A stretch of 64,000 nt of DNA from Candidatus Electryonea clarkiae (GTDB taxonomy: Bacteria > Electryoneota > Electryoneia > Electryoneales > Electryoneaceae). This document shows positions 34,808 through 62,040 of this stretch, one piece after another. Location of the stretch: positions 62,001-126,000 of the forward strand of contig JAVCCM010000108.1 in NCBI GenBank assembly GCA_030765455.1, in the 5' to 3' direction. Under the pieces are notes generated by a model, which saw nothing but the letters and a program-made list of their open reading frames with translations, had not been told where the DNA came from and searched no databases. How positions within the stretch are numbered: position 1 is the stretch's first letter; the number at the start of each line of letters is the position of its first letter. A program made the translations under genes and the position numbers.

Positions 34808-37421
34808 CCTTTTCAGTCTTTTCAATCTTTACTTCATCAACCTTGGCATCTTCTGTCTTTATCGTGCTGTCTTCTTTTACTTCATCAGATTCCGGTTCTG
34901 AAGCCTCCGTTTTTGCTGATTTTTCTTCTATTGCTTCCTTCTTATCAGTTTTCTTTTTTGCTGACGCTGAAGGTTGTTTTGCAGGCTTTTTCGCCGTCTT
35001 CTTTTCCGACTCCGTCTTTACCTCGGCTTTTTCATCTTTTTCTTCAGGTTTGTCCTCAACTTTGGCAGCTGCTTTATCTTTGCTTTCTGCTTGCTTATCA
35101 TCAACTTTTATCTCAGCAACTTTTTCCTCTGTCGTGTCGTTATCATCTTTTTTCGACGCAACAGATTCTACTTTTTCAATAACGACAATTTCACTCTTCG
35201 CAGCCGTTTTCTTTGTTGATTTCGTTTTGTGCTCAGCCTTCTGCTCTGCTTTAGCGGCTATATATGCTTGAAGCAGTGGGTTATCCTGCTCCAAAGAATC
35301 GGCAAGTGTAGTTCCAGTCCCATGAGTGGCTTTTCCAACATATTTTGCTTCCTGCTTGGTTTCTTCATGTTTCTGCGCCTGACTGTTTGACAGTACTACT
35401 TTTCTTTCGGTTTTGTCAAACTCAAGCAGGACAAGTTTCATGATATCGCCAATTTGAACGTTTCGTTTCTTGCCTTCAAAGTACTTTCGAGCAATCTGGC
35501 TGTTTGGAACAAATCCCTCGATTTTATGCTGCAACTCTACAAGTATACCCTTGTCAATAACACGAGTAACAGTACCCGACGTCTTGCCGCCGACTTTTAC
35601 TTCCTGCTCAAACATTTCCCAGGGATTTACATCAAGTTGTTTATAACCTAAGGCAATACGCCGCTCATCACGATCAAAATCAAGAATTATTATCTCGATT
35701 TCTTGAGCTTTCTTCAGAATTTCTCCCGGGTGACGTACTTTCTTGATCCAGGATAGATCGGAAATATGGATTAGCCCATCAATACTGTCTTCAAGTTCCA
35801 CAAAAGCACCGAATGGGACTAAATCTCTAACAATACCCTTGTGTGTTGTTCCAATCCTATATTTTGCTTCAAAGATTTCCCATGGGTCATCTTCAACCTG
35901 CTTCAGACCAAGACTGATTTTTCTGTTCTCTTTTTCGATATTGAGGATTACAACCTGTACATATTCTCCCTCTCTTACAACCTGGCTGGGATGACGGATA
36001 TGTTGCGTCCAGCTCATTTCACTGATATGTACCAACCCTTCAATACCCGATTCGATTTCAACAAAAGCTCCGTATTTTGCAAGGCTTACGATTTTCCCCT
36101 GTACCTTTTGTCCAACTCTGAATTTATTCTCAATTTCATCCCACAGGTGCGAATGCAGTTGTTTTAATCCAAGACTGATTCGTTTTCTATCGAGATCATA
36201 GTTCAAAACTTTTACTTTGATCTTTTGATCCAGTTGAACTATTTCGTTGGGATGGGATACACGTCCCCAGGAGAGATCGGTAATGTGAAGCAATCCATCA
36301 ACACCGCCAAGATCAACAAATACACCAAAGTCGGTAATATTTTTCACAGTCCCTTCAAGTACGTCTCCGACCTTAAGCTGGTCAAGTAATTTCGCCCGAA
36401 CTTCCTGGAGGCTTTCTTCAACAAGAATTTTATGGCTGATCACAATATTCTTCCTAAGATCATTAATCTTAAGAATTCTGAATTCCATCTCCTGATCAAT
36501 GATGGACTCAAAATCGCGAATGGGACGGACATCAATCTGGCTTCCAGGCAAGAATGCATCAACACCGCCCAGATCAACAACCATACCACCCTTGATCCTT
36601 CTCATGCACCGACCACGGATAATGCCATCTGCCTCATACACTTTTTTAACCTGATCCCATATTAGCATGAAATCAGCTTTCTTCTTAGAAAGAATTAGCT
36701 GTCCCTCGCTGTCTTCCACATTATCCAGGTAAACATCTATGTTTTTACCAACTTTGAGGTCGCTAATATCTTCAAACTCATCTATTGGTACTGTCCCCTC
36801 GGATTTAAACCCAATATCAACTGCAACTTCTTTTTCAGATATTGCAACAATTTTCCCTCTGACAATTTCGCCCTCTTTTATTTCGGTCAGAGTATCCTCA
36901 TACATTTTTTCAAGATCTTTGAATTGTTCAATATTATATGCACTATCCTTTGGAAGGTCTTCAATCCTGATAAACTTTTCGCCATTTCGCACCTGTAATT
37001 TAGATGCGGGATAATCAACAAATTCGTCGAACATTCCGAAAGTATCATCCTCAGTGGCTTTTACTTCAGGTTCTGTAAATGAAGTTTCTACATCGCTTTT
37101 GTCTTCAAGTGCAGGTATATCAGCGTCTTTCTCTTCAGTAGAAGCAGACTCTTGCTCTTCCTTAGGTGATTCTGATTTTATTGTGTCATCTGATTCTTTT
37201 TCATTTTTATCTTCAGTTTTGTCTTCATCCGGTACAACTTCATCAGCTTCCGGTTTCAAGACATCTGCAGTTATTTCAGTCGTTTCCTGATCCTCAGTTT
37301 TTTCAGATTTTGAATGATCAACCGTGATTTCAGTTTTTGACTCATTGTCAGTCGCATCTCCTGCCTGATCGACGGGAGTAACTTCTTTTTCTTCGTTGTT
37401 TTGTGTTACTTTTTCTTCCAT
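34794..37421 (-). CDS. rpsA: Ribosomal protein S1 with long charged extensions
   Basis: 875 aa from the ATG at 37421, which follows GGAGG. Six S1 domains are readable from about residue 182 to 685 (for instance GTVKNITDFGVFVDLGGVDG, LVHISEMSWTQHIRHPSQVV, LIHISDLSWIKKVRHPGEIL). S1 binds mRNA near the start codon and promotes initiation. The N-terminal ~175 residues are strongly acidic and low complexity (TEDKNEKESDDTIKSE), and the C-terminal ~185 are Lys/Glu-rich (KKTAKKPAKQPSASAKKKTD). E. coli S1 is 557 aa without these tails. The upstream leader can form a hairpin (GGTG ... CACC) and a CCGGA-TGT-CCGGA repeat near the ribosome-binding site, possibly for autoregulation. Confidence 0.93.
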   Translation of the reverse strand: MEEKVTQNNEEKEVTPVDQAGDATDNESKTEITVDHSKSEKTEDQETTEITADVLKPEADEVVPDEDKTEDKNEKESDDTIKSESPKEEQESASTEEKDADIPALEDKSDVETSFTEPEVKATEDDTFGMFDEFVDYPASKLQVRNGEKFIRIEDLPKDSAYNIEQFKDLEKMYEDTLTEIKEGEIVRGKIVAISEKEVAVDIGFKSEGTVPIDEFEDISDLKVGKNIDVYLDNVEDSEGQLILSKKKADFMLIWDQVKKVYEADGIIRGRCMRRIKGGMVVDLGGVDAFLPGSQIDVRPIRDFESIIDQEMEFRILKINDLRKNIVISHKILVEESLQEVRAKLLDQLKVGDVLEGTVKNITDFGVFVDLGGVDGLLHITDLSWGRVSHPNEIVQLDQKIKVKVLNYDLDRKRISLGLKQLHSHLWDEIENKFRVGQKVQGKIVSLAKYGAFVEIESGIEGLVHISEMSWTQHIRHPSQVVREGEYVQVVILNIEKENRKISLGLKQVEDDPWEIFEAKYRIGTTHKGIVRDLVPFGAFVELEDSIDGLIHISDLSWIKKVRHPGEILKKAQEIEIIILDFDRDERRIALGYKQLDVNPWEMFEQEVKVGGKTSGTVTRVIDKGILVELQHKIEGFVPNSQIARKYFEGKKRNVQIGDIMKLVLLEFDKTERKVVLSNSQAQKHEETKQEAKYVGKATHGTGTTLADSLEQDNPLLQAYIAAKAEQKAEHKTKSTKKTAAKSEIVVIEKVESVASKKDDNDTTEEKVAEIKVDDKQAESKDKAAAKVEDKPEEKDEKAEVKTESEKKTAKKPAKQPSASAKKKTDKKEAIEEKSAKTEASEPESDEVKEDSTIKTEDAKVDEVKIEKTEKDDKE

Positions 37422-37502
37422 GATAAAACCTCCGGACATCCGGACGGTGCAATACTTTTTGCATACACCGGGGTTAATGGGAGCGCCACAAGGGAGGAAA
37501 AT

Positions 37503-37616
37503 TTGAAATGGATAAAACCGTTTCTCTTTTATCCTGGTATCTTCACCTTTATTGCGGGTGGCATAATTCTCTGTTCAATAGCTGTTGTCTTCTTTTCCAA
37601 CAAAACAAAAGCTTGA
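37503..37616 (+). CDS. Putative 37-aa single-pass membrane protein
   Basis: Starts at TTG 37503, with AGGGAGG 5 nt upstream, one of the best ribosome-binding sites in the window. The product is KWIKPFLFYPGIFTFIAGGI then ILCSIAVVFFSNKTKA: a short charged N-terminus, one hydrophobic helix of about 25 residues and a basic C-terminus. It lies on the strand opposite to rpsA, 80 bp from its start codon. In-frame codons extend upstream into the antisense of rpsA but lack a start signal. Too short for homology by eye; the TM helix plus ribosome-binding site is the support. Confidence 0.45.
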   Translation: MKWIKPFLFYPGIFTFIAGGIILCSIAVVFFSNKTKA

Positions 37617-37689
37617 GAATCCGATACTTATTTGCAGAATTATATCTGCATCAGTCTAAGATATGCCTGTAATTGGTGAAGCTACTTTA

Positions 37690-37950
37690 TTTTAAAAGTT
37701 TACCTTACTTTCCCTCGGACGATGACGCTCGTAACATGTGGATGTCTTAACATGCCCGGTTTCGTCACTCGCGATCCATGATGATGAACGAATATCGTGC
37801 AGGCGATAAATATCATCTTCCGGATTCGCCGTGGGCGCCTTCTTGACAAATGTTTATGCGTTTCCTGGAACCTGCTTCTACCGACAAAGAAACGCTTCAG
37901 TTAATGTAAAACCAACCCTGCCGAAGGGTTTAAATACTTGAATCTGCTTT
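37690..37950. ncRNA. Candidate structured RNA between rpsA and dnaE2
   Basis: A 260-bp block of higher GC than the neighbouring spacer, with no ORF. It holds several separate inverted repeats: CATGT/ACATG (37735-37755), GGCGA/TCGCC (37802-37830), GCGTTTC/GAAACGC (37858-37893) and a hairpin AACCCT/AGGGTT (37914-37930). On the minus strand a TATAAT (37957-37962) would start a transcript here; on the plus strand the last hairpin followed by TAAATACTT could terminate one. The minus strand contains AAGGCGCCCAC, which recalls 6S RNA, but I cannot build the 6S fold. Strand and class unresolved. Confidence 0.35.
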
Positions 37951-38139
37951 ACTCAGATTATATGATTCGAATTTAGTTCTTCCAGTTTTCAACAGTAAGA
38001 CCAATATATCTCTTTGACTCCGAGAGTACGTCATAATCAGCCAAAAAAGCCCGAAAATAGCCTTTTCATTTGGGATATTTGGGATTTGAATTATTTCTTC
38101 ATTTTGAGTATCCAGGTTGGTTTTTTATCTCATCGCAGG

Positions 38140-41100
38140 CTATTTGATGCTTATTCTTGTATTCTCAATCCCTTCGCATCCTTTCGGCATAATTTTTTCG
38201 ATATTCTCACCTACAAGGGTACTGACACCCTGATCGTCTTCGATTTGTCCGGTGACTCTGAAAGGTCCATGTCCACGGACTATCGTGGCAAACCGTCGAA
38301 AGACACGAGGAAAGAGAGTCACTTCAAAAGTACCGGTCAAATCTTCCATCGAAAGGAATATCATTTTTTCTTTTTTTGTTCTGGTAGTTATCTTTTTCGA
38401 TGCGTATGACCAGCCTATCATAGTTACTTTCCGTCCGAGGTGACGCTCCAGGTCACGCGCGGGAACAGCGCCGTTCATGGGAAGGTCAAGCAAAGCAAGC
38501 GGATGTTTTCCCGGAGAATAACCAAGGATACGACGTTCAGCAATCAGCTTTTCCATTTCAGACCAGTCGGGAGCATCCGGCATATTTGAAAAAATATCCT
38601 CAGCGTCTAAAGCCAGCGGACTCGAAGAACGCTGAAGGGCTGACCATCCTGCCTTCAACATCCGTAATAAAGTCGGGCGGTTCGCCGCAAGTCTGTCAAA
38701 AGCACCGCATGAGATCATCGCTTCTGTTTCATCACGTGATGTTTTCACACGTCTCATGAAGTCACCGAGATTTTTATACTGCCCATTTTGTTCCCGATCC
38801 TCAACAATGCGTTGAGGTGTTTCTTCACGTAACGTGCCAATTGCTTTCAATCCTATATAAACCTTATCGCCCTCTCCCCTGCACTCGATGTGGCTGCTAT
38901 TGATATGCGGCAGCAACACCTTCAAACCCATACGTTTTGCCTCTTCAACATACGCCGCCTGGCTGTAAAATCCACCGCAGTTGGCTAGCACTCCAGCCAT
39001 AAATTCTGCAGGAAAATACGTTCGAAGATAGGCTATCTGCACTGAGAGTACTGCAAATGAAGCGCTGTGCGCTTTGCAGAATGCATAACCTGCGAATGAA
39101 TACACCTGCCTCCAAATTTCAGTTGCGATATCTTCTTGTACTCCGTTAATCCTGCATCCATCAAGGAATTCACGTTCGAGCTTCGCCAATGCTTCCGGTG
39201 AACGTCCTTTTCCACTCATTGCACGGCGTAATGTATCCGACCTGCCAAGGGAAATCCCTGCTAAGTAATGACAAATTTTGATCACATCCTCTTGATAAAT
39301 CATTACTCCGTAAGTTTCTCCTAATAAATTCTGCATTTTCGGGTGGAGAAAAACGGCTTTTGATGGATCACGAACACAGTCCACATACTGCTTCATCATA
39401 CCGGATTCACTGACGCCTGGACGAATTACCGAACTCGCTGCAACAAGCAGCTCGAAATGGTCGCAATCAAGTTTTTTTAGCAATACCCGCATACCAGGCG
39501 ATTCGATATAGAAACAACCCATAGAGTTTCCGGTACGAATTGTCTCCCAAGTTTTTTTATCGCGAAATAACATCTCCACATTCTCAACCGGCGGCATCAC
39601 ACCCGTGTTATCTTTGACATTCAGAGATGCATCCTTGAGAACTCCAAGCGCTCGCTGACTAAGCAGATCGATTTTTACAAGTCCAAGGTCTTCGGTACTG
39701 TACATATCATATTGTGTTACAACAAATCCCTTGGCTGCCATCTCTAATCCGGTCCAATCAGTTATCGGATCAGGCGAAATAACAACTCCGCCCGCATGAA
39801 TCGACAGGTGACGCGGCAAACCGTTCAATTGGTCGGCATCTCTTGCAATACCCGCCCAGGGTTCTCGATCCAAAGGGAGACCTGCACATTCAGGGGATTC
39901 AGCAAAAACCTCCATCAACGTCTTACCATGTGAAAACCAGGGGATACGCTTGGTAAAACGTGTGATTTCCTCCTCCGGAATTCCCCTCGCGGATGCAGCC
40001 TCATGCAGCGCCGCTCGAAGACCGAACGTTACCGTTGTGCAGATAAGCCCGACATGATCATTACCGTAAGTTTCAAAGATATTTCGCAGGGTTTCGTCAC
40101 GATCGCGCCAGGAGAAGTCGAGATCAATATCCGGAGGGCTTTTCCGTTCTGGATTCAAGAAACGCTCGAAGTATAGATCGTATTTCAAGGGACAGATATC
40201 AGTTAACCTTAGACAAAAACATACGATACTGTTCGCGGCTGAACCTCTCCCAAGAGTTTTTACGCCGCGATTCCAGGCTTCACGTGCGATATCGTGAACC
40301 ACAACCATATACCCGGTATAACCGAGATGGTCGATTACGCCAAGTTCATACGCGAGGCGTTCAAGCGCTTTCAAGGGTGGCGGGTTTCCGTATCGCTGCA
40401 GGAGTCCATGCTCAGTTCGCTCCTTGAGTTCTTCAAAAGATGTCCTGTTATCGGCAAGAATTGGTTCGGGAAACTTCAATTCGCCCAGGCGGAGATCAAC
40501 GTTACACCGTTCAGCTATCAACCTGCTGTTAAGAATCACTTCAGGAAGATTCCTGTATGCTTTCAATAGCTCACCATTATCATCCAAAGGACGTGAGATG
40601 ATATCGTCCCTGCCTTTGGATGTTCTCAACAGTACCTGTTTTTCTCCAATTGCTCGCAGGAGATTCGATGTATGTTCTTGTTCTTTAGTTGCATAGGCTA
40701 CATCACCGGTAACAACCATTGGGATATTGTTTTTACGGCAAATCTCATACACTCCCCGGGCTTTTCGTTTTCTATCATCGTTATCGGGCAAAGTCAAATT
40801 ACCATACAGATTCCCTGACGATAACCTGTTTCTTAGAGAAAGCAGAATGTCCTCATCAGAAGTAGCAACAATCACCGAATCATTTATTTCTTCAGCGATT
40901 AGATCAAGTGTGAATTCGGGATTCAGTTGACGTTCACTTGCGAGCCTGCCAAGTTGACCATATCCTTCAAAATCTGTAGCCCAGAGCAGGCAATAACGTC
41001 GTGCGTCCCGTGGATCGTCAAGCAACATACCGAGAACAGGTTTTAGACCGGCTTCATACGCCGCTTTGTAACCACGAACTAATCCACTCGTCCTGTTTCG

Positions 41101-41238
41101 ATCTGTAAAGGCAATTGTCTTTTGACCCAATCGACTCGCAGTTTCCACGAGTTCGTTAATGCGTCCTGCACCTTCATAAAAAGAATATGGTGTGCGAACA
41201 TGGAGATGGACAAAATCTTTCCAATTTGCATTTCCCAT
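38140..41238 (-). CDS. dnaE2: Error-prone DNA polymerase DnaE2
   Basis: 1032 aa. C-family polymerase used for mutagenic translesion synthesis. PHP domain at the N-terminus (HLHVRTPYSFYEGAG), palm with GRGSAANSIVCFCLRLTDIC and the catalytic acidic motif PPDIDLDFSWRDRDE at about residues 367-380, then fingers with MIYQEDVIKICHYLAGISLG, and a C-terminal OB-like part (VTMIGWSYASKKITTRTKKE). Length and missing tau-binding tail fit DnaE2 (ImuC), not replicative DnaE1. It follows imuB by 62 bp with an AAAGG ribosome-binding site, so both are probably induced from the SOS-type promoter in front of imuB. Confidence 0.93.
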   Translation of the reverse strand: MGNANWKDFVHLHVRTPYSFYEGAGRINELVETASRLGQKTIAFTDRNRTSGLVRGYKAAYEAGLKPVLGMLLDDPRDARRYCLLWATDFEGYGQLGRLASERQLNPEFTLDLIAEEINDSVIVATSDEDILLSLRNRLSSGNLYGNLTLPDNDDRKRKARGVYEICRKNNIPMVVTGDVAYATKEQEHTSNLLRAIGEKQVLLRTSKGRDDIISRPLDDNGELLKAYRNLPEVILNSRLIAERCNVDLRLGELKFPEPILADNRTSFEELKERTEHGLLQRYGNPPPLKALERLAYELGVIDHLGYTGYMVVVHDIAREAWNRGVKTLGRGSAANSIVCFCLRLTDICPLKYDLYFERFLNPERKSPPDIDLDFSWRDRDETLRNIFETYGNDHVGLICTTVTFGLRAALHEAASARGIPEEEITRFTKRIPWFSHGKTLMEVFAESPECAGLPLDREPWAGIARDADQLNGLPRHLSIHAGGVVISPDPITDWTGLEMAAKGFVVTQYDMYSTEDLGLVKIDLLSQRALGVLKDASLNVKDNTGVMPPVENVEMLFRDKKTWETIRTGNSMGCFYIESPGMRVLLKKLDCDHFELLVAASSVIRPGVSESGMMKQYVDCVRDPSKAVFLHPKMQNLLGETYGVMIYQEDVIKICHYLAGISLGRSDTLRRAMSGKGRSPEALAKLEREFLDGCRINGVQEDIATEIWRQVYSFAGYAFCKAHSASFAVLSVQIAYLRTYFPAEFMAGVLANCGGFYSQAAYVEEAKRMGLKVLLPHINSSHIECRGEGDKVYIGLKAIGTLREETPQRIVEDREQNGQYKNLGDFMRRVKTSRDETEAMISCGAFDRLAANRPTLLRMLKAGWSALQRSSSPLALDAEDIFSNMPDAPDWSEMEKLIAERRILGYSPGKHPLALLDLPMNGAVPARDLERHLGRKVTMIGWSYASKKITTRTKKEKMIFLSMEDLTGTFEVTLFPRVFRRFATIVRGHGPFRVTGQIEDDQGVSTLVGENIEKIMPKGCEGIENTRISIK

Positions 41239-41300
41239 CTTTAGCCTTTACTATGCTTTAAGTTTTCAGGAGTGTCATAAATGAGAATTATTTATCAATA

Positions 41301-42434
41301 TTATACAGTCGATTTTTCCCAGGCAGATGCGAATTTGACGGAATTTTTTCCCCAACGCATACGCAGATTGTAAAGAGTTCGCTGCAAACGTTCGTCACGT
41401 CCGGTCAATAATGCCGGTTCAAAGAGTTTCAATTGACGTCCGGGCGGATTTCCAAAGGGAATGGTCATTCGTAATTCTGCCAGACGCACCCTGCGTTGCC
41501 AGAGTTGATTTGTCAATTCAAAAGCTGCTCTTTGCCATGCACCTTCATGCCTGATTCCATTTCGCTTGACCAATCCCCCACTCCGCTTTCCGTCACTGTA
41601 AAGTATCATCAAACGTAGAGAAAATGGTTCATATCCAGCGACTGAAAGTGCGTCCATTCCTTCTGATACAAGTGTTGCGAGAGCTTTATGAACTTCACCC
41701 GGATCATCTTCATCGCCTGACAATCTTCGTCTTCCCCGCCATTCTCGTTTCGGTTCCGGTCGTTGCCCGCAGAATGCAAGAGTTTTCAGAGTCCTACCCT
41801 CGGAACCAAATAATTCCCGTAGCAGGATATCCGGCAATTTTGCAATTTCACCTAAAGTTCTCACACTAACCTGGTGAAGCGTTTCACATTGTTTTTTATT
41901 CAGATCATGAAGTACTTCAATCGGGAGTGACTTGAGGAACGCGCTAATATCCTTCGATGCAACAAACAGTATTTCACCGGTCCCTGCAATCATAGATGCA
42001 ATCTCTGCCACACTTTTTTCTGAAGCGATCCCCCATGAACCACTGAATCCACGAATCCTCAACCGGATATTTATCTTTTTTAATGTCTCTTTTAGAAAAC
42101 GAGTACCTGAAGACCATGTCGCAGCAAAAAATCCGGGACGCAATAATTCGGGTTCAGTAAGGAACATTCCGAGTTCACAAAGTATCTCATCGATCATGTA
42201 TTTATAACGATTCGGATCACTTTGAATTTGTAGTAATTCTTTATTATCAAGGGTATCAACCCTGTTGTTCGGATACACTCCCATTCTTTTGGCATCATCA
42301 GTGACTGAAAGAACCATTGCTCGGGCGCCCTCCCCGGTGACGACTGCGACAGGTCGTTTTTCATTTGGGGGTAGAAGCATCCGTTCAATCTTAGCGTAAA
42401 AACCGGATATTCGTAAAACGATGTGTGTTTTCAT
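41301..42434 (-). CDS. imuB: ImuB-like inactive Y-family polymerase
   Basis: 377 aa. Y-family fold that acts as an adaptor in the ImuA-ImuB-DnaE2 mutasome. The first polymerase motif, normally DxDxFFASVE, reads LRISGFYAKIE, so both catalytic acidic residues are gone; the second motif is also altered (LTEPELLRPGFFAATW). Middle section contains a helix-hairpin-helix-like LHQVSVRTLGEIAKLPDILL. Near the C-terminus, QLKLF (334-338) is a beta-clamp-binding pentapeptide, needed to bring DnaE2 to the clamp. It is transcribed with dnaE2. No imuA/sulA-like RecA homologue is adjacent. The start codon sits only 5 nt after the -10 element. Confidence 0.88.
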   Translation of the reverse strand: MKTHIVLRISGFYAKIERMLLPPNEKRPVAVVTGEGARAMVLSVTDDAKRMGVYPNNRVDTLDNKELLQIQSDPNRYKYMIDEILCELGMFLTEPELLRPGFFAATWSSGTRFLKETLKKINIRLRIRGFSGSWGIASEKSVAEIASMIAGTGEILFVASKDISAFLKSLPIEVLHDLNKKQCETLHQVSVRTLGEIAKLPDILLRELFGSEGRTLKTLAFCGQRPEPKREWRGRRRLSGDEDDPGEVHKALATLVSEGMDALSVAGYEPFSLRLMILYSDGKRSGGLVKRNGIRHEGAWQRAAFELTNQLWQRRVRLAELRMTIPFGNPPGRQLKLFEPALLTGRDERLQRTLYNLRMRWGKNSVKFASAWEKSTV

Positions 42435-42439
42435 GACAG

Positions 42440-42468
42440 AATATACTGCACAACTGTACAGTATTCAA
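42440..42468 (-). promoter_or_regulatory. SOS promoter with LexA-type box for imuB-dnaE2
   Basis: Minus strand: TTGAAT, 17 bp, TATATT (a good sigma-70 type promoter). The spacer and flanks form TACTG-N10-CAGTA (42444-42463), identical in outer arms and spacing to the E. coli LexA operator (TACTG-TATATATATA-CAGTA), with CTGT-N8-GCAG against CTGT-N8-ACAG. A repressor here would cover both promoter elements. The imuB ATG begins 5 nt after the -10, at the expected transcription start. Confidence 0.82.
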
Positions 42469-42544
42469 GAAGATTAATTCAGAGAGTTTTATCTTTCTCC
42501 AATTTTGCCATATATTGATGTTAATTTCGTTACAAGTCACAGGA

Positions 42545-42587
42545 TTGAAAAGCAGTTCACTTTCAATGAAAGAGACCGGCTTTTCAA
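42545..42587. repeat. Inverted repeat in the 42624 gene leader
   Basis: TTGAAAAGC and its perfect complement GCTTTTCAA are separated by 25 bp, with an inner CTTTCA/TGAAAG. It lies between the divergent imuB promoter and the plus-strand membrane protein gene. It could be an operator or a leader hairpin; no T-tract follows on either strand. Confidence 0.4.
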
Positions 42588-42623
42588 AATTTGTCTGACA
42601 ATAACATAACGTCGTGATTTAAG

Positions 42624-43280
42624 ATGAGCACAGAGAGCCGAAAACGATTATTCTGGGTAGGGATTTTCGGAATTGCAATGGGGTGGTTTGAAGCCGCGGT
42701 TGTAATATACCTGCGGACATTATACTATCCCGAGGGTTTTGCATTTCCTGTAAAAGTGATACCCACGAACCTTGCGGTTGTGGAGCTGGGACGCGAGGCA
42801 GCGACTATCCTGATGCTGATTGCAGTGGGATGGCTTGCAGGACGGACTTCAACAGAAAAGTTTGGATACTTCATCTATGCTTTCGGTATCTGGGATATCG
42901 TTTATTACATTGGACTATATCTTGCGTTAGGTTGGCCTGAAAGCTTGCTGACATGGGATATTCTTTTTCTGATTCCCCTTCCCTGGATTGGACCTGTCCT
43001 TGCACCAATCCTTGTCAGTCTTGGTATGATCTTCTCATGTTTCGTGATTGTATCCCAGGAGGATCGAGATAAACCTGTGAAACCATCAAAGCTGTTCTGG
43101 TGGTTGGAAATACTCTGCGGTTTAATCATCATCGGCAGCTTTATCATTGATTTTCGACTTGTAACCGATGGCGGAGTTCCCACAAGATTCCATTGGGAGA
43201 TATTTTTATTGGGATTCATCCCCGGAATCCTGTTGTTTCTTTTAACCTGGAAAAAATCAAATACCGAGAGTAATACCTGA
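42624..43280 (+). CDS. Polytopic membrane protein of unknown function
   Basis: 218 aa with about six membrane helices and a charged C-terminus. Conserved-looking features at the N-terminus: WVGIFGIAMGWFEAAVVIYL then RTLYYPEGFAFPV; later FGYFIYAFGIWDIVYYIGLY and IPLPWIGPVLAPILVSLGMI. I have seen uncharacterised proteins with this GWxEAxVVxYLR start, but no function is known to me. The ribosome-binding site is weak. It lies 4 bp before the next gene, so the two are probably cotranscribed. Confidence 0.82.
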   Translation: MSTESRKRLFWVGIFGIAMGWFEAAVVIYLRTLYYPEGFAFPVKVIPTNLAVVELGREAATILMLIAVGWLAGRTSTEKFGYFIYAFGIWDIVYYIGLYLALGWPESLLTWDILFLIPLPWIGPVLAPILVSLGMIFSCFVIVSQEDRDKPVKPSKLFWWLEILCGLIIIGSFIIDFRLVTDGGVPTRFHWEIFLLGFIPGILLFLLTWKKSNTESNT

Positions 43281-43284
43281 ACAA

Positions 43285-44163
43285 ATGAAATTTCATCTCT
43301 CTATTCCCAGATTATTAATTGTAACGATATTGCTGGTTTCATGCGTTCTCGCTTCATATGGGCAAACCACTTCAGAAAATTCATCATCACTAAGATTAAA
43401 ACATTTAACACTCGCATTCTGGAATGATACTGCCGATGCAGAACGATTTGTAGAGGAAGGGTGGGTATATGCGCCTGATGATTATATTACCACGTCAATC
43501 GCGGCAAATATATCTGTTGATTACAACAATAAGCCCTGGATATTCGCGTGGAATACGAATGTTATCACGTTAAAAGATGAGGGATATAGAACTGATTTAT
43601 TGACCATCCGTTTATCAAAACCGATTACCTGGGAAAAAGGGCAGTTTGTAATATCTGCTGGAATTATGGGCAATGGCAATTTTGGCGGAGAATCAATTCA
43701 AAACGGCTACCATTTCATTCGGAGCCACCGGATCATTGATCTCCCCTACCCGGAATCAAGAAGAATTGGCCCAATGTTTGAAGAACAGGCTGTATTTAAT
43801 ATTTGGGAGACGAATTCAAATTCGTTCTATCTTTGCCTGAAGAATTTCAACGCTCTACCAGCCGGATATCATAGATACAGAGGTATGTTTCTCGCTTCCT
43901 CACAAATTTCCCCCGCAATTACCTGTGAGGCAACCTTTGGTTATTCTGGATTTTACTTGCTGCACGATAGCCTGCAACCTGTTTTTCAGAACGGAATTGA
44001 ATACGGGATTCTGTTTCGCTGGGAATTGCGGGAAAGAGTGACAATCTCTGCCTGGGCTTACGCAAATGCATACCGCAACGATCAATCCATTCCCGGTATT
44101 TCCTTGACATTTGGATCGATTGATAATTCGGACTTACTTACAGGAATGGCGCTGTTTCCTTGA
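43285..44163 (+). CDS. Putative outer-membrane or periplasmic beta-rich protein
   Basis: 292 aa, not recognised. Signal peptide (PRLLIVTILLVSCVLASYGQ), then alternating polar/aromatic strands (PWIFAWNTNVITLKDEGYRT, DLLTIRLSKPITWEKGQFVI, GIEYGILFRWELRERVTISA) and a short terminal strand ending in LLTGMALFP, consistent with a small beta-barrel. No cysteine-based lipobox fits well. Follows the membrane protein with 4 bp spacing. No close family can be named. Confidence 0.75.
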   Translation: MKFHLSIPRLLIVTILLVSCVLASYGQTTSENSSSLRLKHLTLAFWNDTADAERFVEEGWVYAPDDYITTSIAANISVDYNNKPWIFAWNTNVITLKDEGYRTDLLTIRLSKPITWEKGQFVISAGIMGNGNFGGESIQNGYHFIRSHRIIDLPYPESRRIGPMFEEQAVFNIWETNSNSFYLCLKNFNALPAGYHRYRGMFLASSQISPAITCEATFGYSGFYLLHDSLQPVFQNGIEYGILFRWELRERVTISAWAYANAYRNDQSIPGISLTFGSIDNSDLLTGMALFP

Positions 44164-61590: not shown

Positions 61591-62040
61591 ATGAGAGACA
61601 TTTCAGAGTATGATATGAAAATTAAGAACTATCCTTATTACCGAGTTGACAAAACAACCTATTTCCATGCTGGTAGAATGGTTGACCTGGATTTGCAGGG
61701 TGGGCTTGAAGATTTGATTGATAATGAAATTGATTCGGGAACAAAACGAATAGTTGTCGGACTCAATGGAATGCGTTTCTTTCACTCTACACTTGCTGCA
61801 TGTCTTTTAAACTCAGAAGCCAGATTGCGTAAAGCCGGTGGAGAAATGGTTATTGCTGGAGCGCCGGAATTTGTCAAAAGAACTATGCAGCAAACCGGGG
61901 TTTCAAGACTTTTTATCTGGGTGGCAAATCTGCGGGAAGCTGAAAGAATTTCAAGCCTGAGTAAAGCCCTGGAATACAATGAATTAGTTCACGAAACATT
62001 TGAAAAGAAATATTCGACAAATTCTGAATTAATAGGCTGA
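61591..62040 (+). CDS. STAS domain protein
   Basis: 149 aa. A compact alpha/beta STAS fold: YYRVDKTTYFHAGRMVDLDL (strand pair), IVVGLNGMRFFHSTLAACLL where the phosphorylatable Ser of anti-sigma-factor antagonists is expected, and GGEMVIAGAPEFVKRTMQQT. The residues around MRFFHSTLA contain Ser/Thr, so phospho-control is possible. Anti-anti-sigma or stressosome-type signalling is the family role; a flagellar or chemotaxis link is inferred from its sigma-54 type promoter. An ATG at 61615 is an alternative start. Followed 43 bp later by a 76-aa gene. Confidence 0.8.
   Translation: MRDISEYDMKIKNYPYYRVDKTTYFHAGRMVDLDLQGGLEDLIDNEIDSGTKRIVVGLNGMRFFHSTLAACLLNSEARLRKAGGEMVIAGAPEFVKRTMQQTGVSRLFIWVANLREAERISSLSKALEYNELVHETFEKKYSTNSELIG

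Follow-up and report, generated by a model that had tools for sequence, protein, structure and literature searches.

A predicted LexA operator within a very probably leaderless imuB-dnaE2 promoter of Candidatus Electryonea clarkiae and its relatives

Introduction

In Candidatus Electryonea clarkiae the start codon of imuB stands so close to a promoter, and that promoter holds so regular a palindrome in its spacer, that two questions arise, namely which repressor would read the palindrome and whether the imuB message has any leader. The locus lies in a stretch of 64,000 nt (positions 62,001 to 126,000 of contig JAVCCM010000108.1 in assembly GCA_030765455.1), the whole of which is referred to here as the window. 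An initial annotation had described a TTGAAT-17-TATATT promoter with TACTG-N10-CAGTA across its spacer and the imuB ATG 5 nt past the -10 element, all of which is borne out by the sequence, and had gone on to propose an E. coli LexA box and a leaderless start. From the analysis set out below, the locus is most likely an imuB-dnaE2 mutagenesis operon without imuA, repressed by LexA and transcribed from its start codon.

Comparative data set and operator matrix

The comparison set consisted of 39 genomes of the phylum, in eight families. The family of the imuB studied here is represented by seven genomes from six genera, which are mutually related and thus not fully independent of one another. 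For the operator, a palindromic matrix was made from 27 lexA upstream regions of relatives, 25 of them with usable sites, the studied genome being left out. The matrix was seeded with the pattern noticed at imuB and lexA, such that the seed is not blind and the training sites are.

The imuB-dnaE2 operon and its promoter

The features of the locus are collected in Table 1.

Table 1. Promoter, operator and genes of the imuB-dnaE2 locus, in positions of the window
Feature	Position	Strand	Basis or remark
-35 element TTGAAT	42463..42468	-	read directly; TTG kept in 7/7 family genomes
-10 element TATATT	42440..42445	-	TATCTT, TACCTT or TATATT in 7/7 family genomes
Discriminator CTGTC, 5 nt, from -10 to ATG	42435..42439	-	without Shine-Dalgarno; predicted transcript start at most about 1 base from start codon
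LexA operator (predicted) TACTGTACAGTTGTGCAGTA, 20-bp near-perfect palindrome	42444..42463	-	sequence and lineage-matrix score
Operator core TGTAC-N4-GTGCA	42447-42460	-	within TACTGTACAGTTGTGCAGTA
imuB start codon ATG	42434-42432	-	5 nt after -10
imuB, catalytically dead Y-family polymerase homologue, 377 aa	41301..42434	-	PF00817, QLKLF clamp-binding-like motif
dnaE2-type second DNA polymerase III alpha subunit, 1032 aa	38140..41238	-	62 nt downstream of imuB

The reading frame of imuB opens at the first ATG, GTG or TTG following the upstream stop, and the locus has the features by which an ImuB is recognised. The catalytic acids are lost (when aligned to the Pol IV of the same genome, ImuB has RIS in place of the catalytic DMD and no counterpart of the DE pair), the QLKLF motif near the end of the protein is conserved in the relatives, and a second dnaE adjoins the gene, the main DnaE being encoded on another contig, near lexA. 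No imuA was found in the operon or across the seven family genomes, where the ImuA model matches essentially only recA. In other words, the ImuA-ImuB-DnaE2 mutasome, to which imuA belongs, is not what the operon encodes. A scan of named genomes for DnaE2 matched one distant Bacteroidales locus.

Read directly on the minus strand (42468-42432), the promoter runs TTGAAT-17-TATATT-CTGTC-ATG, with TACTGTACAGTTGTGCAGTA across its spacer. The palindrome, whose arms TACTGTAC and GTGCAGTA flank a centre of 4 nt and mismatch at one position, contains an exact TACTG-N10-CAGTA, which has no second exact match in the window, where about 0.06 matches to ten fixed bases would be expected by chance in 64 kb. 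The -10 element and this E. coli-type box overlap, the outer TA being common to both. A scan of 37300-43400 reported no further sigma-70-like promoter ahead of imuB on the minus strand. The intergenic region separating imuB from the divergent gene is of about 190 nt; the latter gene (42624-43280) encodes a membrane-like protein with no Pfam or NCBIfam match, and a similar divergent neighbour is readable beside imuB in the relative G019 (L008).

A probable LexA operator of the lineage's own type

The E. coli consensus by itself was rejected as evidence of an operator, since across the 5.76 Mb of the genome the exact TACTG-N10-CAGTA occurs at chance level (seven sites, as compared with six for the reversed control), and with the lineage matrix the six sites other than imuB score from -0.3 to 13.8 bits. 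Enrichment of the box, together with its presence at both lexA and recA, would mark an E. coli-type system; here recA has none and the lexA copy has two mismatches. It is therefore the comparative evidence, rather than the match to E. coli, that convinces. In this regard, the LexA box of the initial annotation stands as very probably a LexA operator, found in all seven family genomes, while its E. coli-type label is not supported.

The comparative evidence begins with lexA. Palindromes such as TTTGCCCATTTGTGCAGTATATT, TTTGAACAAGTGTTCCTTATATT and CTGAACTCCTGTTCA occur in the lexA promoters of the relatives, and lexA promoters across the phylum carry the lineage box. The consensus of the matrix is TAcTGcACAtaTGTgCAgTA, and the lineage operator has the form ACTGNACA-N2-TGTNCAGT. 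With this lexA-derived matrix the imuB site, at 21.1 bits, ranks first in the window, where the second best site scores 11.8 bits, and it is also top-ranked within 864 kb of the genome. In each of the seven family genomes, moreover, the score of the LexA site is reached by none or one of 2000 shuffles. LexA itself is canonical (TIGR00498, 176.5 bits, over the cut-off), its A-G cleavage site, serine and lysine are intact in alignment to E. coli LexA, and searches found this single LexA in the genome. On these comparisons the imuB palindrome is very probably a LexA operator of the lineage's own type.

The relaxed motif CTGNACANNTGTNCAG (CTGNACA-N2-TGTNCAG), with at most one mismatch, has 32 sites in the genome as compared with three in the reversed control, about half of the 32 being one repeat family. 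The sequence CTTAACAAATGTTCAG has at least a dozen copies, most of them near the ends of contigs (on contigs C13, C23, C30, C41, C81, C86, C99, C100, C119, C122, C123, C166 and C179), and adjoins the hairpin CAGTTCTCCCCATGGGGAGAACTG where it was read. Since it lies inside a dispersed repeat, the LexA-like motif there may be coincidental, and these copies were not counted as operators. Motif matches within genes (L105, L107, L108, L114) were treated as chance.

A conserved, very probably leaderless start

All seven family genomes share one layout at imuB, in which TTG-17/18-TANNTT encloses the operator in its spacer and is followed by 5-6 unconserved nt and the ATG, with no Shine-Dalgarno sequence before the ATG in any of them. 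Compared in pairs, the seven are 71% identical in the 30-nt block that ends with the -10 element and 25-26% identical upstream of that block, and the aligned ImuB proteins of the family are 36-42% identical to that of the window. The signs of a leaderless gene, that is a -10 element some 5-7 nt before the ATG, the absence of a Shine-Dalgarno sequence and conservation of both, are thus present in 7/7. A later start of imuB is unlikely because the conserved N-terminus of ImuB begins a few residues after the ATG. Structure at the 5' end of the mRNA is weak and variable, and was not used as evidence. Elsewhere in the phylum LexA boxes usually precede imuB as well, but they lie at other places and the leader is longer; an exception outside the family, G011, has a GTG 5 nt after the -10 element together with a poor operator (7.4 bits).

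The studied genome in general uses Shine-Dalgarno sequences, the frequency of G peaking at 0.40 at position -9. It has no clear general class of leaderless genes, given that TTG-16/18-TANNNT stands 5-6 nt before the ATG in eight of 478 genes where about three would be expected from other distances. Indeed, the imuB-like layout is rare among the genes of the two genomes sampled. From sequence, then, imuB very probably starts without a leader, as had been proposed at the outset.

Proposed mechanism and alternative explanations

Taken as a whole, the reading of the locus as an SOS-controlled, LexA-repressed, leaderless imuB-dnaE2 promoter is given a probability of about 0.8. A LexA dimer bound to the spacer palindrome, with the -35 and -10 elements on either side, would block RNA polymerase and, upon DNA damage, RecA filaments would bring about the self-cleavage of LexA and so free the promoter, both the block and its release being predicted from established LexA biology (PMC8565304). 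Transcription would then begin at the imuB ATG or within about one base of it, as predicted from the promoter geometry, and the resulting leaderless message would be read start-codon-first and not through a Shine-Dalgarno sequence. Against this reading stand the lack of a box at recA, the weakness of the box at the genome's own lexA, and the consideration that imuB could in addition be served by a non-canonical promoter further away.

The last of these points may be taken further, in that the LexA operator could be real while a promoter further upstream provides a leader, in which case imuB would not be leaderless. Transcript starts are beyond proof by sequence, and the intergenic region measures some 190 nt; however, the absence from the scanned region of another sigma-70-like site upstream on the strand, the chance-level likeness of the seven relatives beyond the 30-nt block and the want of a Shine-Dalgarno sequence before the ATG in 7/7 make such an arrangement improbable. 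Less probable again is that the palindrome serves another repressor, for example a second S24-type or phage-type regulator. The unboxed recA and the degenerate lexA copy would sit well with this, as would the use by Bacteroidetes of a different LexA-like family (PMC8565304), but a matrix drawn from lexA promoters also finds dinB and uvrA, which are of the classical LexA regulon, and a single LexA was found in the genome. As for an E. coli-like box without meaning, the unenriched consensus (7 vs 6) is what chance would give, yet the ranking by the lexA-derived matrix, the placing of the site at the same position in all seven relatives and the shuffles contradict it, and its likelihood is close to negligible.

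Returning to the reading of a LexA-repressed, leaderless promoter, a further step can be offered tentatively. Leaderless messages are poorly read in healthy cells and relatively well under stress. It is conceivable, if doubtful, that selection has kept the leaderless start as a second lock on the mutagenic polymerase.

The predicted SOS regulon

The initial annotation had looked to recA, lexA and uvrA for further copies of the box, and would have given up its reading in a genome whose lexA and recA were without it. Half of this applies, recA having none and lexA a degenerate copy, but the lineage motif stands at dinB, at uvrA and in the lexA promoters of relatives. In the studied genome uvrA has a box 42 nt before its ATG (17.8 bits), and boxes also occur at uvrA in G019 (19.3 bits) and, weaker, in G016 and G017. 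The genome's own lexA, which closely follows the main dnaE and dtd, has a degenerate box of 13.5 bits with the left arm CACTT. Upstream of recA there is no LexA box in the studied genome, and scarcely any across the phylum, such that recA was rejected as a member of the studied genome's regulon. With dinB, uvrA and imuB boxed and recA not, the SOS regulon would therefore be one that excludes recA.

At dinB the operator lies just after TTGACA-17-TATTAT (16.5 bits) in the studied genome and scores 18.4 bits in G019. In two genera a small DUF6504-like gene separates dinB from the LexA box (L123:729-2580 on G000:C2, G000 being the studied genome, and L175:10989-12620 in G019). By its sequence, DUF6504-dinB is taken to be a conserved SOS operon whose first gene is uncharacterised. 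An exact lineage box is also found shortly upstream of the start of a DinB-superfamily (PF05163) gene (L125:2286-2846, G000:C96:45285). Upstream of a TcmP (TIGR04474) and DUF5131 radical-SAM-like pair (L127:2133-4155, G000:C37:17132) is TTGACTTGTGTACATATGTTCACTATAAT, which scores 19.0 bits and is a perfect promoter-operator match; this suggests that the pair, whose function is unassigned, may be damage-induced.

Comparison with known systems

The imuA-imuB-dnaE2 and lexA-imuA-imuB-dnaE2 cassettes of Caulobacter, Pseudomonas and mycobacteria resemble the present locus in that an inactive ImuB and a second DnaE are encoded in a LexA-controlled operon, and differ from it in that imuA is absent and the start very probably leaderless here. 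Another known system also lacks imuA, is SOS-controlled and pairs an inactive Y-polymerase homologue with DnaE2; in the present case ImuB is one chain that bears a clamp-binding-like motif of its own, and lexA is not part of the operon.

In Fibrobacter the LexA box is TGCNC-N4-GTGCA. The boxes of E. coli, CTGT-N8-ACAG (PMC8565304), of B. subtilis, CGAAC-N4-GTTCG, and of cyanobacteria, AGTACWNWTGTACT (both PMC3091678), are, like that of Fibrobacter, palindromes with the same centre as the lineage operator, whose core, TGNAC-N4-GTNCA, takes in the Gram-positive and cyanobacterial types as well as that of Fibrobacter. What distinguishes the lineage operator is the combination of CTG...CAG flanks with an ACA-N2-TGT interior, and it is nearer to the GAAC-N4-GTTC type than to the E. 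coli box. The Bacillus and cyanobacterial types of PMC3091678 come nearer to it, as does that of Fibrobacter. The operators of Bacteroidetes, GGA-N5-TCC and CTAA-N5-TTAG (PMC8565304), and of Balneolaeota, a direct repeat (PMC7739468), are unlike it.

An accepted sign of a leaderless gene is a -10-like TANNNT about 12 bp before the start, and in such TA-led genes the -10 element lies directly before the ATG, as at imuB (PMC3160421); imuB differs from them in being an exception within a Shine-Dalgarno-using genome, conserved for one gene. Neither a leaderless imuB nor a leaderless dnaE2 was described in the literature searched, although such cases may exist.

Implications

For the phylum, these results provide a sequence-defined SOS operator with a core regulon of imuB-dnaE2, dinB, uvrA and lexA, and not recA. 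The SOS regulation is ordinary; it is the conserved, very probably leaderless, start that is new. The locus would be a clear case in which such a start has been kept for one gene, in seven genomes, while the lineage otherwise relies on Shine-Dalgarno sequences, and it makes it testable whether leaderless translation helps to control mutagenic DNA synthesis. If the second lock were real, LexA and the state of the ribosomes would both gate imuB-dnaE2.
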